Positions 919 through 10,170 of a DNA stretch of 64,000 nt are shown one piece after another; the first letter of the stretch is position 1, and every line of letters starts with the position of its first letter. A program made the translations under genes and the position numbers. Source of the DNA: Chondrosia reniformis (Eukaryota; Porifera; Demospongiae; Chondrillida; Chondrillidae); assembly GCA_947172415.1 (NCBI GenBank), contig OX359200.1, positions 2,501 to 66,500 on the forward strand. Reading direction: 5' to 3'. Under the pieces are notes generated by a model. It was not told the origin of the DNA. It saw only the letters and a list, made by a program, of their open reading frames with translations, and did not search any database.

Positions 919-1029
919 TGTCCGTAGTGTTAATGACAATAGGGTCATTGGCTGCATGGTTAAATATTAGCAATAGGTTTTTTGGCGGAAGTGATAACAA
1001 CGGTAGGGTTTGCGGAGGAAGGGTCAGTG

Positions 1030-1460
1030 GCGGTAAGGATTGCAGTGGTATATAGAGTTAGCGGCGGTAGGGTTAACAGCTTTAGGGTTAGCAGCGGTAG
1101 GGTTAGCGGCAGAAGGTTTAGCAGCAGAAGAGTTAATGGTGGTTGGGTTAATAGCGGTAAGGTTATCTGCGCTAGGGTTATCCTCACTATGGTTATGGGA
1201 ATTAGGGTTATCGTTTCTAGGGTTATAGGCGTTAAGGTTAAGGGTGCTAGCGTTAGGGTTAGTGGCCGTAGGGTTAGCGGCAGTACGGTTAGTGGCGGTA
1301 GGGTTAGCGGCGGTAGGGTTACCGGCTGTAGGGTTTGCAGCGTTAGGGTTAACGGTGGTAAGGTTATTTGCGATAGGGTTATCCGCACAAGGATTATGGG
1401 GAATTAGGGTTATCGTTTGTAGGGTTTTAAGCGTTAAGGTTAAGGGTACTAGCAATAGGG
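1030..1460. repeat. Degenerate 15-bp TTAGGG-like subtelomeric repeat
   Basis: A decayed tandem repeat with consensus near GGTAGGGTTAGCGGC (15 bp); most copies keep TAGGGTTA. Because 15 is a multiple of three, several frames stay open on both strands, but the peptides are low-complexity and not genes. A roughly 50-bp segment at about 1198-1250 recurs at about 1406-1452, showing higher-order duplication. Confidence 0.75.
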
Positions 1461-1479
1461 TATTTGAGGTACCCTCTTT

Positions 1480-1605
1480 GTGGGGATAGGGCCTTTGTGG
1501 GGCTAGGGTTTTTGTGGGCTTAGGGATTTTGTGGGGTTGGGGTTTTTGTGGGGCTAGGGTTTTTATGGGGCTAAGATTTTTGTAGGGCTAGGGTTCATGT
1601 CCATT
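1480..1605. repeat. G-rich 20-bp degenerate repeat
   Basis: Six or seven imperfect copies of a unit like GGGGCTAGGGTTTTTGTG. It still contains CTAGGG and TAGGGTT, so it is probably a further decayed telomere-related repeat at the inner edge of the telomeric tract. Confidence 0.55.
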
Positions 1606-1789
1606 AATGTGCTACAGTTAGGATTAGGTTAAGATTACCCAACCCTTAAAATCCTAGCCCCAAAACCCTAATTGATTAATTCTAATTAGTGAGTTGTTTT
1701 TCCATAATATTATTACTAAATGTGTAGAAAGTGGGTGGAGCTACTTTGGTTAATGTTTGAGAAACTCTAACATATTGCTTAATTTTAGG

Positions 1790-2530
1790 CACATGTAGTT
1801 GCATGACTCTTAGGGCTTTAGTAGCATATTGGTGCATGTAGGAACAAGTAAGTGCATGTAGCTGCATGTAGCCGCATGTAGTCACATGAAGGTTCAAGAA
1901 AGCAAATTAAGATACACTGTAGGCGCATGTAGGCGCATGTAGACGTATGTAGGCAAATATAGATGCATGTACGTGCATGCAGTAGCCGCATGTAGGCACA
2001 CTGTAGCTGCATGTAGGTGCATGTAGCCGCATGAAGTCACATGTAGGTGTATGTTGGCAAATGTTGGCAATTGTAAGCGCATTTAAGCACTTTTAGGTGC
2101 ATGTAGTCTCATGTAGGTGCACGTAGGTAAATATGTGCATGTAGATAGGAACATGTAGCTGAATGTAATTGCAGAAAGCCACTTCTAGACACATGTAGTT
2201 ACATGTTGACGAATCTATTGTTGTAGTTGCAAATATTGGTGCATGTAGATGCATGTAGTAGCCGCATGTAGGCACATATAGCTGTAAGTAGCATGTAGGT
2301 GTGTCATGGCCAATGATGGCACATGTAAGCACTTTTAGATACATATAGATGCATGTAGTCTCATGTAGATCCATGAAGGCGCTTTTAGGCGTATCTGGGT
2401 CCATGTAGGCAACTCTAGGTGGATGTACGTACATGGAGGCACATGTTCGAACATGTATCCGCATATAGGTGCATGTTGTCCCTTGTAGGTGCATGTAGGC
2501 ACATGTTGGCACATGTTAGCGCAGGCAGAC
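1790..2530. repeat. Degenerate 12-bp subtelomeric repeat (GCATGTAGGCAC type)
   Basis: About 740 bp of imperfect copies of a 12-bp motif near GCATGTAGGCAC or GCATGTAGCTGC. Longer blocks recur, for example GCATGTAG followed by GCCGCATGTAGGCAC around 1975-2000 and 2250-2275. The 12-bp period keeps minus-strand frames open and yields His/Tyr/Met/Thr/Cys-rich peptides, which I read as artefacts of the repeat. Confidence 0.7.
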
Positions 2531-2676
2531 ACATATAACCTCAATAAATAGCATGAGATTTTGCTTGCTAATACATTGAATAGGGCGGCCATTTTTTCCA
2601 GCCATACTTAGAGAGGACTACTGTACTCTCTGATAGGCAATACATAATATAGGTGTAAGTACTATTTTTTATTTAA

Positions 2677-2895
2677 CCCTTTAACAGCCGATAGCCACTA
2701 TAGTGGCTCTAAATTGTTTATATAGACTGTTAACAGCCGCAAAGTTACAAAATCGTCCTATCATGTTTACACAAATCGATAGATTTTCAATAGTTTAAGC
2801 TTTGTATGAAAATTATATGGGTTTATACTGCATAGGCTGAAATGTTAGTTCTTTTTTGATCTACTGACATCTAATAGAAGGGGGGGAAATACGGG
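2677..2895. mobile_element. Possible piggyBac-like MITE (TTAA-flanked)
   Basis: A 219-bp stretch is bounded by TTAA on both sides (2673-2676 and 2896-2899). It starts CCCTTTAACAGCCG and ends ACGGG, as in piggyBac elements with TTAA targets and CCC/GGG ends. A perfect 16-bp palindrome, AGCCACTATAGTGGCT, lies just inside the left end. Only the outermost three bases are inverted repeats, so the call is tentative. Confidence 0.3.
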
Positions 2896-3737
2896 TTAAT
2901 TGTGGCATTTTTTGGCGGCCATGCATTTTGTTTTCAGGTGCGATTTGCACGTTATATATATATATAATAATGATTGCAACAAACACTCCTTATATTATAT
3001 ATATACACATGGACAAGTACAAATATGAACAAAAACATAAGAAGAGAAGATAGAGCTTAAATTACCAAAGTTTTAATACGGTCGGCTAAACGAATTTCTT
3101 AATTAGCATCAATATAGACACAATTCGGCTCCCAAAGTCGAAAGATGACCCTTTCCAAAGATAAACATGTATGTATACCATGATATATGTTGGTTTCAAA
3201 GTGGTCTGACCAATTGAATTTTTTTATCAATATAACACTTGGTTTCAATATAAATTTTCTATAGCTTTTCTATAGTCCTATATGCATGCCATTTTATATG
3301 CAGACTTTGTCCTCCGTTTTCTACCAAACAGAGACCTATATCAATAAAAAAAATCCCTTAATTTAAAATGAGTTTTATATACCCTAAACCATAATACTAT
3401 GCCCATTTTGTTTCTAGGTCCTTTCTTGGAGCCATATGAATTATTTAATTATTATATTATTTGTTTATTTATTTAGTAATTTATTTATATTATATTAGAT
3501 TAGATTAGATTAGATTAGATTACCTTAGTGTATTGTAACTTGTACTATATATATTCAGTCGAGTTTGTTTGTTAGCTACCACGTTTCTCCGTCGTTTCTG
3601 GACGAAATGCAGTCTAACTCTCACAGATTATGGAGTATCACTTGGGAAGTGACCGGAAGTATTTCATTTACGAAAATTCGCCGCTGCCGAGAAGAGCGTC
3701 CGCTGCAAAACAAACAGCACTACAAATTCCCGCAGAC

Positions 3738-4430: not shown

Positions 4431-5640
4431 GTATTGCTCCTTTTTTCTTGTTAATATTTGTTTTGAAAGTTTTCTTGGCGAAAACTCGAAATAAAGTAGC
4501 AGAATAGACGATATAATAGAGAGCTCTAAATTAAAAAATGGCGTCCGAAAAGATCCCAAATTTGATAAGATGTTTTCTACCGTTCTTTAACATTCAGTTT
4601 AGGATATTAAAGGGTCCATAATCGTTAAGAATACGACTGTATATAGGCCCTGCAAAGCGACTAAGAAATTCGATCGCGGGTAACGGCAGTACCACAAATA
4701 TTACTCATTCGGGTTACTTATTTTATATAGAGAGAATTTGAAACTTAATTAAAAAATGGCGTTCAAAGAGGCCCTAAATTTTGCACTTTCAAAAGTAACA
4801 CGCTTCGGTTGGAGCGCGTTGAAATCTAGGGTAGCCTATTCCCTAGTTCGGAAACATTCATGACGATTTAGTATTTGTATGTACCTGCGTAAGTTTGCAT
4901 GTTAGCGCTAGCTCATTTGAAAAAAGAAGAAGAAAAAATGAGGAATTGCAGAATTTGGCCTATTTCGGTTTAACCACTTTGCGAAGGTTTTAGAGCATCG
5001 TAAAATGTTTTGGCGTTTAGAAAAGCATGCAAAAACGACTGCAAACACACGAATGCAACCGAAAATCTGAACGTTGTTGATTTATGAGGTGTTAATTGAT
5101 AATACATTGAATAGGGCGGCCATGTTTTTTTTCGGCCATCCCTACTTATAGAGTACTACCGTACTCTATGATACGTATTGAATAGGGTGGCCATTTTTCC
5201 AGCCTTTCCTAATTATACCGTTTTCATACGGCCACTCGTAAACTGGGTTCAACCCGGGTTGGGTCGAATCGGGTTAAGCTCTAGCCCGGTGTCACAGTAA
5301 ATTCTATCCCCCCTAAATTTTATCCCCCCGGATAAAATATCCTAGGATAAAATATCCCCCCGGGATACTTTATCCTAGGAAAAATTATCCTACCCTAGGA
5401 AATTATATCCTACTCTAGGATAGAATATCCTAGGATATTTTATCTGGGGGATGAAATAAACTAGGATAGTTTATCCTAATCATTTTGTCATATATGAATG
5501 TTTATTATTAATAAATAAGTACAAAATACTTAATAAAATACATAATCTGTTATGTCAAATGCATGAGATAAGAAAAAAATACTAAAATAATACTTGTCAT
5601 ATGTCATGAAATTACAAAAATTAAAATGCAATCTGTTATG

Positions 5641-8304
5641 TCAAGTGCACTGGGAGCAAACCCATGAAATGTCCTTCTCGGAGAATATCCTGTCTGGAAT
5701 GGCCTCACAAGATTTATGAAACCATCCCTGACAATTGCCACATAAGGCCATCTCCTCACCATCTTCAGGTAAAAGGCAATGGCAGTACAAACTGACATAC
5801 TTCTTTGTTAGAGGCTTTGGAGGCTTTATCTTTCTACTTGGAAAAGGAGCCACTTTACCATTTGTAAAGCATTCTAAGAAATGGCTCCTCATCTTTGCTT
5901 GGTCATACCTAATATGCATGTCACAAGAAGTTTTCAAATTAATCAAAACTCACATATATAACATAATCATGAATATACCTCTTGCTGCTTGGATCTTCTC
6001 CAAAGCACAGATCTGTAGCATAGGCTATTGCAAACAGGCCACAATCAGTCCCTCCTTTCTGCGTGGTCATTCTCATCAGTTCAAACACCACCTGTCTCTT
6101 GTCAGTTTTCATGATGCAACAAGACTGCACCTCAACAGGAGAAGTGATTGATAAATTCAGGCTGTCATAGACTCTTACTAATCCTTTGTTTATTCCAGCC
6201 ACAGTCAACCAGTGTCCTCTTCTATTATGGAGGATTTGCACAAATGGAGGTTCCTCTACTTGAAACCCTAAAATCTGGCCAAAGGTTGGTGGTTGCAGAC
6301 CATGCATATCAGGGAATTGTTTACTGAGCAGCTTATGTGCAAGCTGTATGTGATTGTCATTCAGCATACGCCCACTTTGGAGATCTTCAATGTCCATGTC
6401 ATTCAATGAAGGAACAGTATTGGTTGTTTTTCTTCTTTTTCTATGATCAAGAGTAGCTCTCTTGGATGGTCCCCTTTTCCTTGATGGAGATAACTGTGGT
6501 GTGCAGTCATGGCAAGGTGTACTGGACATTGGGCCATCTCTTTTTACAGGAGTGCTAGACTGTGGACTCTTGGAGGTAGGACTCACATTCATGGGTGTAG
6601 GGCAATCGTCTTTATTCTCTTTCATGGCTGTAGGGCAATCTTGTTCAAAATAATCCTTCAGTAGGGCACCATTATATAATTTCTTCAAAATGCCTCCTTT
6701 CAGGGATTTCAGTTGGTAGCGTCCCTTTGTCAACTTCTCCACAATCTCATAAGGTCCATCCCATTTTTCATCAAGTTTTCCACCCATTCTGTGATTGTTC
6801 CTCATGACCTTAACCAATACCTTAGAACCAACTGAAAATTCCTAAATGAACATGAATTATATATATAATGCATAATGAAATATTATACAGTAGTAAATAA
6901 CTTACATAATTAGAGTGTTTTACATCATAATACTTCTTTTGCCTTGCTTGTGCCTTAAGGATGTTTTCTGTGGCCTTTGCCTTATTGTGCTCCCTCAGTT
7001 CAATCAATTGCTTCACCAAAGTGTCCTTTCTGTCTTCATCATCAATGAGTGAGGCTGGGTCAATTGAAGAGTTTGCCAACTCATGATCAATGGCCTTTCT
7101 TGGGTGTCGATTGTACATTAAGAAATAAGGAGAGAACTTGGAAGAATCTTGCCTTGAGATCCTGTATGAGTACAAAACTCCTTCCAAATGAAGGTCCCAA
7201 TTTTCCTGCTGGTCCTGTGTGAGCTTAATGAGGGTTCTGACAAGGGTCTGATTCATCCTTTCATCCAAGCCGTTGGTTTGGGGATGATAAGCACTGCTGA
7301 TTCTATGCTCCACCCCTGTGAGTTGGAAGAGGCTTTTAGTGACATCATTCACAAACTCGCGACCTTGATCTGATTGGACAATTTGAGGCCATCCATGGCG
7401 GAAAAATATGGACATTAAAAATTCGGCAACACCTACTGCAGTCTTGTCTTGTAATGAAGCTGCTTCAGGCCACTTGGAAAAATAATCCGTTAAAGTGATA
7501 ATGTATCGGTTGCCACGTGGTGTCAATGGAAGTGGGCCAACTAAATCAATCCCCACTCTGTGCCACACATCTGTGACAGGAATGGGATGTAGTTCAGGCT
7601 TGTTCTTAGCCAGTTTGCTGTTAACTCTCTGGCAAGTGTCACAGTACTTGCAGAAATCAAGGACATCCTTTGTTAGTGACTTCCAGTAGAAGGACTGTGC
7701 TATCTATAGATGAAAATAGATATATATATATTAATTATCACTGTTGTAAAATCCATCAAAAAAATATAATAATATATATATATATATTAATTATCACTGT
7801 TGTAAAATCAATCAAAAAATATAATATATATATATATTAATTATCACTGTTGTAAAATTAATCAAAAAAGATATAATATATATTAATATATATACAATTT
7901 ATACATGTTTAATTCCTATGCATATGCCTAGTATATACAATTAGGGTTATAATGAGATAAACAAATATAACTATATATACTATGAAGCATGTACACACCT
8001 TGCTGTAGGTCTTATCTCGTCCAAAATGGGAGCCATCAATGCCGCTGTGGCAAGCTGTCAAAATTCGCTGCTTTTCTTCTTGGCTTGTGATCACTCGCTG
8101 CATCACCTCCTCTCCTGTGTCATTCTTGACGGTTTTTCGAAATAGAACGCCGTTTCGTTCATCAAATTTCTCGGCCTGCTGTCTCAACGCTCTCTTATCG
8201 TTAGCTGTGAATCCGTCAGGATATTCGGGTCGACTTTCCTTGCTTCCGTGGATATAGTGAACGAGTGCTTGGCATCTCTCCTCTGATAGTATCGTCGATG
8301 TCAT
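5641..8304 (-). CDS. Ginger transposase: integrase + GPY/F + Ulp1 protease + PHD
   Basis: Four exons (8304-7999, 7703-6906, 6841-5979, 5908-5641) with clean GT-AG introns give 744 codons without a break. The order is: H2C2 zinc-binding region across the exon 1/2 junction; integrase core with the acidic triad in GIDLVGP, QSDQGREF and GLDERMNQ; GPY/F module (KWDGPYEIVEKL) at the start of exon 3; then a basic low-complexity linker with SPSRKRGPSKRA. A C48/Ulp1-like protease follows, with His in GHWLTVAG, Asp in VRVYDSLN and Cys in GGTDCGLFAIAY. A C-terminal PHD finger (CHC...CGNCQGWFHKSC...CSQC) closes the protein. Ginger1 elements are known to add protease and PHD domains to the integrase. All catalytic residues I can see are present, so the element may be active or recently so. 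Intron 1 holds an AT-rich tandem repeat. Confidence 0.85.
7712..7890. repeat. AT-rich ~50-60-bp tandem repeat in transposase intron
   Basis: Three to four copies of a unit containing TTAATTATCACTGTTGTAAA followed by ATCAATCAAAAAATATAAT and an AT dinucleotide run. They lie entirely inside intron 1 of the Ginger transposase gene. Confidence 0.7.
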
Positions 8305-10170
8305 TGTAGATCGATTATTAAACTGTTACGGACGAAAATGCAACGGTTTTTATAGACATTTTCGGCGCTTTTTTATTTTGTCACTTTCCTATTGGCTGAA
8401 AATCCGAAAATCGTATCCCTTTTTCAGCCCAAGGTTCCTTCTTATGTATCTAAAGGATTTCGTGATGATACGCTTAAATCGTAGAGTATTAGATAAATTA
8501 TCCTAGGGTAGGATAAATTATCCTAGGGTAGGATAAAATTTCCTAGTTTCATTTATCCGCCCGGATAGTTTATACTATCCGGGCGGATAAAATACACGGG
8601 GGATAAAATATCCTGTGACACCGGGTTCGACTCAATTCGCGTTCATACTGTCTATCGAATGATTATCAATATTCGCTCGGTATACGTGTATAATGAGTAT
8701 GACGAATTTTTCCTACACTGCAAAAAATAAGGCAATTTACAGAGATTTAAACTGTTTGTACATGCAGGTGGACAAATAGTGTACACAGTTTGCAAATGGG
8801 TTATGGACAAATTTGTAACATGTTGTAAATGGACACTTTACAGACATGTACAAACATTTGCAACTTTCAGGTTTTGTTTGGTTTGTGGTCAGCTTTGTCA
8901 ATGAATAAGGTTGTCTAAGGTTTTCACAAGGAGAATATGAATATCATTAACACTTTGCCACTAATTGCACTTGCTAATGAAACTATGAATATTATTATTA
9001 ATTAATATTCATAGCTTCCAATGAATTAAAATTAAATCAGGAAATTTCTCAATATACAATTAAAATACAAAAAGTGATTAAAATAAACTGTTTAGCAGTT
9101 AATTCTTCAGAAGTCTATCTTGCTAGGTATGTAGCCATGAATTCTGAACCATGGCATGTTGGTTGAATCTAAACAAGAGAAGAAAAGTGGGAATTATACA
9201 AATATATAAATCTTCTTACCTAAATACTTACTGATCAATGATGATAATGTGTCTACCGGCCACTAGACACCCAGGATCTTCTGTTAAATACTGCCTAAAT
9301 AGAAAACATATTTTTCATCCCAAGCCCAAACTCAGTATCAAAAGCATTGAAATGTAATGTTATCTTACTTTGATTGTCTTCCTAGAGTAAGACATTCCAC
9401 ATTCAATTCACACTATATAATAGAATCAGTTGTTGTAAATAAAATGCAAGTATTATTATAAGTCTTTAAGTCTCCTTACTGGCACTATACCCTTCACTAA
9501 AGCTGCTGAAAGGAAGCGTTGCGCCAACTTTAACAGCCTAATAAAACAAAGACAATAGGTGAATTACCTCTACAAGGTATAAGGATTTTGCAGACTTACG
9601 TATACGTAATAGTCAAAAGAACTGTTTCCTTCGTGAATGGCGACGTTGGCGAGTTCCCTCCAAAGAGTTCCCTCCAAAAAGTATACGTTATAATTGCATT
9701 CATAGAATTGACCACGCTTTCACGAGATTTTGGTGGGACTAGGCGGTCTTCTCTGTGTACGATCGTGTTAACCTTGGCTTACTAAGACTTCGTAGAATTG
9801 CCGAACGTCGCCGAACTGATGCAATATGCGTATGCAGTACACTTGTAATATGGTTAGTTTCAATATGTTAACCCTGTAGCCATTATACACTGTAATATTC
9901 ATTGTATGTTGAGCAAAAGTGTACGTACGTACGTACCTACCTACCTTTCACTAGTAAACAGTTATACGTATCATAAAATATTCGATACGATTGTATGTCA
10001 GTTTAATGATTATGAAGCTTCAATATGACTTGAGCTGTTTTTGTCCCTTTAACTGAAACATTTCAGTGTATTAGATTCTTTATTAGTGTTATAGTACGTA
10101 CGTAAAACCAATTTATCATCTATACTTGTAAGCATTTGGTTGTAATTCATTATTATTAATATATATATGG

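Follow-up and report, generated by a model that had tools for sequence, protein, structure and literature searches.

A complete Ginger1 DNA transposon with a Ulp1-type protease region and a PHD finger in the sponge Chondrosia reniformis

Anatomy of the element and its gene

Based on the analysis of a stretch of 64,000 nucleotides (the window) from the sponge Chondrosia reniformis, which appears to lie near one end of chromosome 12, we describe a complete Ginger1 element of 3,331 bp that spans window positions 5290-8620 and carries a gene on the minus strand. The features are listed below by position in the window, with CpG content given as the observed-to-expected ratio (o/e).

5286..5289, no strand: left target site duplication CCGG; single CCGG here in three empty paralogous sites
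5290..8620, minus (gene): whole Ginger1 element, 3331 bp, based on ends, duplication, gene and copies
5290..5489, no strand: left terminal and subterminal region, dense in TATCC/GGATA and forming an imperfect inverted repeat with the right end
5641..5908, minus: exon 4, end of the protease region and PHD finger (C698 to C743)
5979..6841, minus: exon 3, GPY motif, linker and Ulp1-type protease H578-D594-Q629-C635
6906..7703, minus: exon 2, remainder of the zinc finger and integrase core D155-D214-E250
7999..8304, minus: exon 1, start codon, N-terminus with Y28-P29 and first half of the H2C2 zinc finger
7999..8620, minus: exon 1, the upstream region and the right end, none of them depleted in CpG (o/e 1.10, 1.78 and 1.08, respectively)
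8471..8620, no strand: right terminal and subterminal region, same TATCC/GGATA array
8621..8624, no strand: right target site duplication CCGG

The left end of the element is TGTCACAG (5290-5297) and the right end CTGTGACA (8613-8620). The terminal inverted repeat is imperfect, about 130 bp long (74-80%), with arms at 5280-5344/8566-8630 (80%) and 5363-5429/8492-8558 (79%), and together with the TGTCACAG ends it fits the TGTNR termini and the 40-270 bp repeats expected of Ginger1. The words TATCC/GGATA occur 29 times in the element, 15 times in the first 200 bp and 10 times in the last 150 bp, and their density in the remainder of the window is 1.38 per kb; they probably form a putative transposase-binding array. 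The 12-mer CCGGTGTCACAG, consisting of the end plus the target, had 87 matches in the genome (117,379,552 bases in 15 contigs were searched) compared to 6 for the reversed control. Because of this difference, and because the duplication is perfect in 24 of the 32 two-ended copies, the combination of ends and target is not due to chance.

The gene consists of four exons that encode a single frame of 744 amino acids without a stop, separated by GT-AG introns of 295, 64 and 70 bp, and the stop-to-stop frames of the raw sequence are consistent with this model. For each splice junction, the genome contains one or more homologous loci in which the protein reads across without an intron, namely L052 over residues 102/103, L045 over 368/369 and 655/656, and L043 and L044 over 655/656. 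Some of these loci are decayed or carry stops elsewhere. As the protein continues unbroken in these intronless relatives, they support the three junctions independently of RNA. Loci L043-L046 are all intronless over the last junction, and intron 1 contains three AT-rich tandem units (window 7720-7893) with a spacing of 56 and 50 bp.

In a Pfam search with the full protein, Integrase_H2C2 (PF17921, 1.8e-18), rve (PF00665, 2.3e-11) and PHD (6.6e-6) scored above the cut-offs, and SH3_Tf2-1 (residues 373-413) and rve_3 were found below threshold. The residues of the H2C2 zinc finger are H86, H93, C123 and C126, followed by the DD35E triad D155, D214 and E250, in which 35 residues separate the last two, and by a GPY motif (WDGPYE, 395-400) that is aligned with GPY or GPF in other loci. 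Upstream of the zinc finger, Y28-P29 is a candidate for the first two residues of a Ginger1 YPYY motif. With NCBIfam, exon 2 gave sub-threshold matches to IS481 (1.3e-20), IS3 and IS21 only, and exon 3 had no matches up to E 0.1. Pfam found no reverse transcriptase match in the 744-amino-acid protein (the other frames of the element were not covered), and a scan of viral contigs with exon 2 as single query, which reaches close relatives only, found no relative. The original prediction, made from the sequence alone, had placed a Ginger transposon with a CCGG duplication and matching ends at exactly these coordinates, and its four-exon gene with an unbroken frame, its integrase acidic triad and its Ginger identity were all recovered here.

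Copies, target sites and recent mobility

A search for copies at the DNA level, in which 40 of 66 candidates were scored, identified copies that match the element at 97-100% over their longest stretches. Three internally deleted copies, on C3, C10 and C13, retain element positions 1-1220 and 2136-3331, 1-914 and 2182-3331, and 1-506 and 1567-3331, respectively, with 99.4-100% identity over each retained stretch. Mismatches number 0 in the C10 copy, 1 in the C13 copy and 4 in the C3 copy, and the gap bases 3 (in a single gap), 4 and 7, respectively. In aligned codons the differences from the window amount to 0/342 (C10), 0/418 (C13) and 3/460 plus a 3-base insertion (C3). Near 7821-7827, in intron 1, the window copy differs in length by 3-4 bases from its four nearest relatives, including each deletion copy. 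Six copies of 747 bp differ pairwise by 0-4 bases. Two deleted copies on C9 (L050, C9:967219-969460; L051, C9:988712-990941) match at about 97% over 1-1966 and at 89-91% at the other end; their flanks are shared at 98.5 and 99.5%, indicating one segmental duplication with the two copies about 21 kb apart. Eight other related loci (L040-L046 and L052) have 28-59% protein identity by tblastn segment, and all of them except L042 matched the Ulp1 region.

Of 44 fetched loci, 31 had both ends assigned, which together with the window gave the 32 two-ended copies. The 24 perfect 4-bp duplications comprised 21 CCGG, 2 CTGG and 1 CCAG. In addition, three paralogous stretches represent empty sites, in which the flanks are joined without interruption and all read GCTCTAGCCCGGGTTCGACTCAATTC, with a single CCGG. 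For a second copy (C5:6612761) the empty-site evidence is weaker, as the relatives extend only about 13-25 bases past the junction. Since the deleted copies match at 99-100% and the 747-bp copies differ by 0-4 bases, it is supported that the Ginger1 element was recently mobile. The genome search that had been proposed with the prediction of recent mobility thus found both near-identical copies and empty CCGG sites, and did not give the opposite outcome, in which every other copy would have been strongly diverged.

Several short elements were observed along the way. One 747-bp copy (L057, C4:8461106-8461852) is located in a tandem repeat with a 106-bp unit, the neighbouring unit of which keeps the same CCGG site empty. 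The element L086 (C7:1164861-1165919; 1,059 bp) has only the outermost ends and the target in common with this Ginger1 family, and L089 (C12:571848-571953) is a 106-bp element that is little more than two ends.

Protease, PHD finger and CpG content of insertion sites

The C-terminal part of the protein was compared in a five-row alignment in which the window was placed with four further loci; of these, rows L045 and L046 look like one family. The profile of these five rows matched SENP5 (9.9e-6), which is a SUMO protease similar to Ulp1, yeast Ulp1 (1.1e-3) and also SENP1 in the PDB. Peptidase_C48 was matched by all five members at E up to 1 (best 5e-6), and a YopJ-type acetyltransferase by four of them (best 2e-6), so that cleavage of SUMO or ubiquitin by the protease is likely but not certain. 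The residues H578, D594, Q629 and C635, among them the His, Asp and Cys of the original prediction, are invariant in the five rows. The profile searches it had named were borne out for rve and PHD, both above the cut-off, and in part for the protease, where Peptidase_C48 remained below the cut-off with the single sequence and SENP5 and Ulp1 were reached through the five-row profile. The ratio of nonsynonymous to synonymous substitution (dN/dS) in the Ulp1 region was 0.06 and 0.26 in comparison to the two C9 copies, 0.39 to C4 and 1.36 to a C14 copy with two stops, and in the linker it reached 4.8 with few changes behind the figure; codons with stops or gaps were dropped, and by themselves these domain values are too noisy to carry a conclusion. 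For exon 3, the AlphaFold model made from a single sequence was uninformative (mean pLDDT 37.7).

All five rows share six of the eight zinc ligands of the PHD finger; His720 is lost in L046 and Cys740 in L043. The best PDB matches of the finger include those of Spp1, PHF2, Dido1, PHF8 and BPTF, and Y697, M709 and W718 are aligned opposite a Tyr, a Met and a Trp of Spp1 that are presumably part of its methyl-lysine cage. Of these residues, the Trp is conserved throughout the other four rows, the Met in all but one row, which has Leu, and the Tyr in a single row, the remaining three having His or Phe. The fingers of Spp1 (COMPASS), PHF2, PHF8, BPTF and Dido1 read H3K4me3. The likeness of the sponge finger to them consists of the sequence match and the Spp1-like Y/M/W, the binding of H3 being known for those fingers.

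Sponges methylate CpG, as indicated by the depletion of this dinucleotide in Amphimedon and by a level of 4.38-5.39% across the stages of Ephydatia (PMC5240623); in the text of the Chondrosia genome paper (PMC12181767) the word stem methyl is absent. Within the element the o/e was 0.08-0.24 in exons 2-4 and 0.33 (two CpGs) in the left end. Accordingly, the promoter and first exon (7999-8620) are CpG-undepleted and the body (5641-7703) is strongly depleted, like a gene with long-term body methylation.

We also determined the CpG content of 200 bp flanks on each side of 31 insertions (one of the C9 pair was dropped). As controls, 93 CCGG sites (46 from the window and 47 from seven other loci holding related genes) and 301 tiles from the same sources were used. 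The median o/e was 0.83 at the insertions compared to 0.43 at the control CCGG sites (p 0.0013) and 0.38 in the tiles, and for what we grouped as the ten youngest copies it was 1.02 (p 0.013 against the CCGG controls). For 19 readable of 20 regularly placed genome tiles the o/e was 0.31 (p 6.4e-5 for all sites, 0.002 for the youngest). However, the three regular genome tiles that hold CCGG had 0.95, 0.97 and 0.60, a warning that the CCGG control is small and local. With the 24 perfect-duplication copies only, the value was 1.00 (p 4e-5), but this filter itself favours unmethylated sites.

The sample thus shows a CpG bias, which may stem from targeting, from an integrase that needs unmethylated CCGG, or from the loss of insertions from gene bodies. 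We give the last explanation, without any targeting, slightly less than an even chance. In its favour, matching for GC reduces the contrast (p 0.026 where GC is 0.44 or lower, p 0.098 where it is higher), and the window's four 2-kb tiles richest in CpG are low in GC (0.36-0.37), which would be expected of a genome whose gene bodies are richer in GC, methylated and poor in CpG. On the other hand, the ten youngest copies, which have had the least time for selection, show the highest median. Targeting of unmethylated chromatin guided by the PHD finger is hinted at and made testable by the CpG pattern, and the nearest solved relatives of the finger together with the CpG-rich insertion flanks are compatible with control of the target site.

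Mode of movement and relation to known elements

Taken together, the element is very probably an autonomous Ginger1 DNA transposon of Chondrosia reniformis that was mobile until very recently. A number of observations weigh against this. The window holds the one readable full-length copy, so another copy may have been the recent source of the enzyme. Eight of the 32 two-ended copies have no perfect duplication, four of these differing by C-to-T or G-to-A inside CCGG. Thirteen of the 44 fetched loci were outside the duplication count as one-ended, belonging to other families or unclear, among them L048, whose right end lacks CCGG, although L052, L086 and L089 nonetheless have CCGG at both flanks. 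Furthermore, Pfam did not match Peptidase_C48 to the full protein at E 0.1 or better, and with the C-terminal 245 residues alone the family stayed below the cut-off (0.07).

It is conceivable, though we think it unlikely, that the window copy itself is inactive and that the enzyme of another Ginger1 copy moved the young short and deleted copies. A second C10 copy (L039:2702-9991) is near-identical over 2381 aligned positions: at 954-3331 it shows a single mismatch and a single 3-base gap, beyond this range its sequence is unreadable (N), and it may be complete. The 747-bp copies have 8-10 differences from the window copy in their last 489 bases, which makes a sister copy their direct parent, and there are the eight other related loci. 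Against this, the window copy has no stop, frameshift or splice defect, and the three deleted copies are near-identical to it over each retained stretch.

A far more remote idea is an integrase remnant of a Gypsy retrotransposon, rejected on the inverted ends and copy structure: the integrase core, H2C2 and GPY motif resemble those of Gypsy (PMC2836005) and many further genome loci, presumably Gypsy, match at 30-37%, but the element has terminal inverted repeats, a CCGG-specific duplication, deleted copies that share both its ends, and a protein that starts and ends inside it without a reverse transcriptase match in that protein. Just as improbable is a Ginger1-derived host gene comparable to Gin-1, which the CpG-undepleted start and CpG-poor body resemble and which was rejected in view of the intact ends, duplication, recent copies and empty sites. 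Ginger2/Tdd was rejected as well, since an AT-rich RTATAY target and no GPY/F would be expected and a CCGG target and GPY were seen.

Starting from the anatomy, target site, empty sites and near-identical and deleted copies observed directly, we propose for the autonomous transposon a model that covers excision, end binding, the origin of the deletions and movement in trans. The transposase of 744 amino acids (H2C2, DD35E core, GPY) would bind the terminal and subterminal repeats and free the element, and would then join the TGT...ACA ends 4 bp apart into CCGG, after which gap filling would give the CCGG duplications. Incomplete repair may have generated the internally deleted copies, which, like the short copies sharing the ends of the element, could have moved in trans. 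The role of the Ulp1-type protease may be to take SUMO or ubiquitin off targets in the host or the transposase, and that of the PHD finger to hold the complex on histone H3 tails where chromatin is active and unmethylated. That SUMO removal can bear on such elements is suggested by yeast, where Ty1 is reported to be held in check at the level of transcription by Ulp1, a SUMO protease anchored at the nuclear pore (PMC8585004). A bolder and rather improbable proposal is a two-part guidance system across several Ginger1 families of one genome, in which the PHD finger would read H3K4-methylated chromatin, active and free of CpG methylation, and guide the CCGG-specific integrase while the protease would strip SUMO-dependent silencing.

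A complete, recently mobile Ginger1 with a protease and a PHD finger offers a concrete source for biochemical tests of the cut-and-paste action of a Gypsy-like integrase and of the roles of protease and finger. The CpG pattern at the insertions yields a direct testable prediction and hints at how the element may choose its landing sites.

The kind of element is already known, and its assignment to the Ginger1 DNA transposons is supported by the described features, i.e. the CCGG target, TGTNR ends, inverted repeats, H2C2, DDE core, GPY and a C-terminal Ulp1-type protease. Ginger1 was defined by a 4-bp duplication of CCGG (75%) or CCGT, TGTNR ends, H2C2, DDE, GPY/F and OTU or Ulp1, with hydra, gastropod, lancelet and aphid as hosts (Bao, Kapitonov and Jurka 2010; PMC2836005); the element described here shares the target, ends and domains of the group, and its host is a sponge. 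Where that publication discusses the protease, it proposes an action in transposition and leaves the excision mechanism and the protease role open. Host genes derived from Ginger1 are known in vertebrates (PMC2836005) and crustaceans (PMC12863088), the text of the latter source containing none of the terms Ulp1, PHD, OTU, CCGG and sponge. Among the matches listed for Ginger with sponge and for Ginger1 with Ulp1 and PHD, judged by title and start of abstract, there was no paper on a sponge Ginger1, and among those listed for PHD finger and transposase integration there was none on Ginger. New here are the protease residues (4/4) and PHD ligands (6/8) invariant in five loci, the nearest solved relatives of the finger, and the insertions in CpG-undepleted DNA.

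The catalytic core is related to that of the Gypsy integrase and the bacterial IS481 and IS3 transposases (IS481 being below the cut-off), from which the sponge element differs by its inverted ends and a protein without a reverse transcriptase match. A single autonomous Ginger1 copy with non-autonomous relatives has been described in the lancelet (PMC2836005). By its published description, Ginger1-9_HM of Hydra magnipapillata is alike in length (3,758 bp), terminal inverted repeat (120 bp), the presence of introns and a C-terminus with Ulp1 plus PHD, but it has two introns compared to three in the sponge element and belongs to a host of another phylum (PMC2836005).

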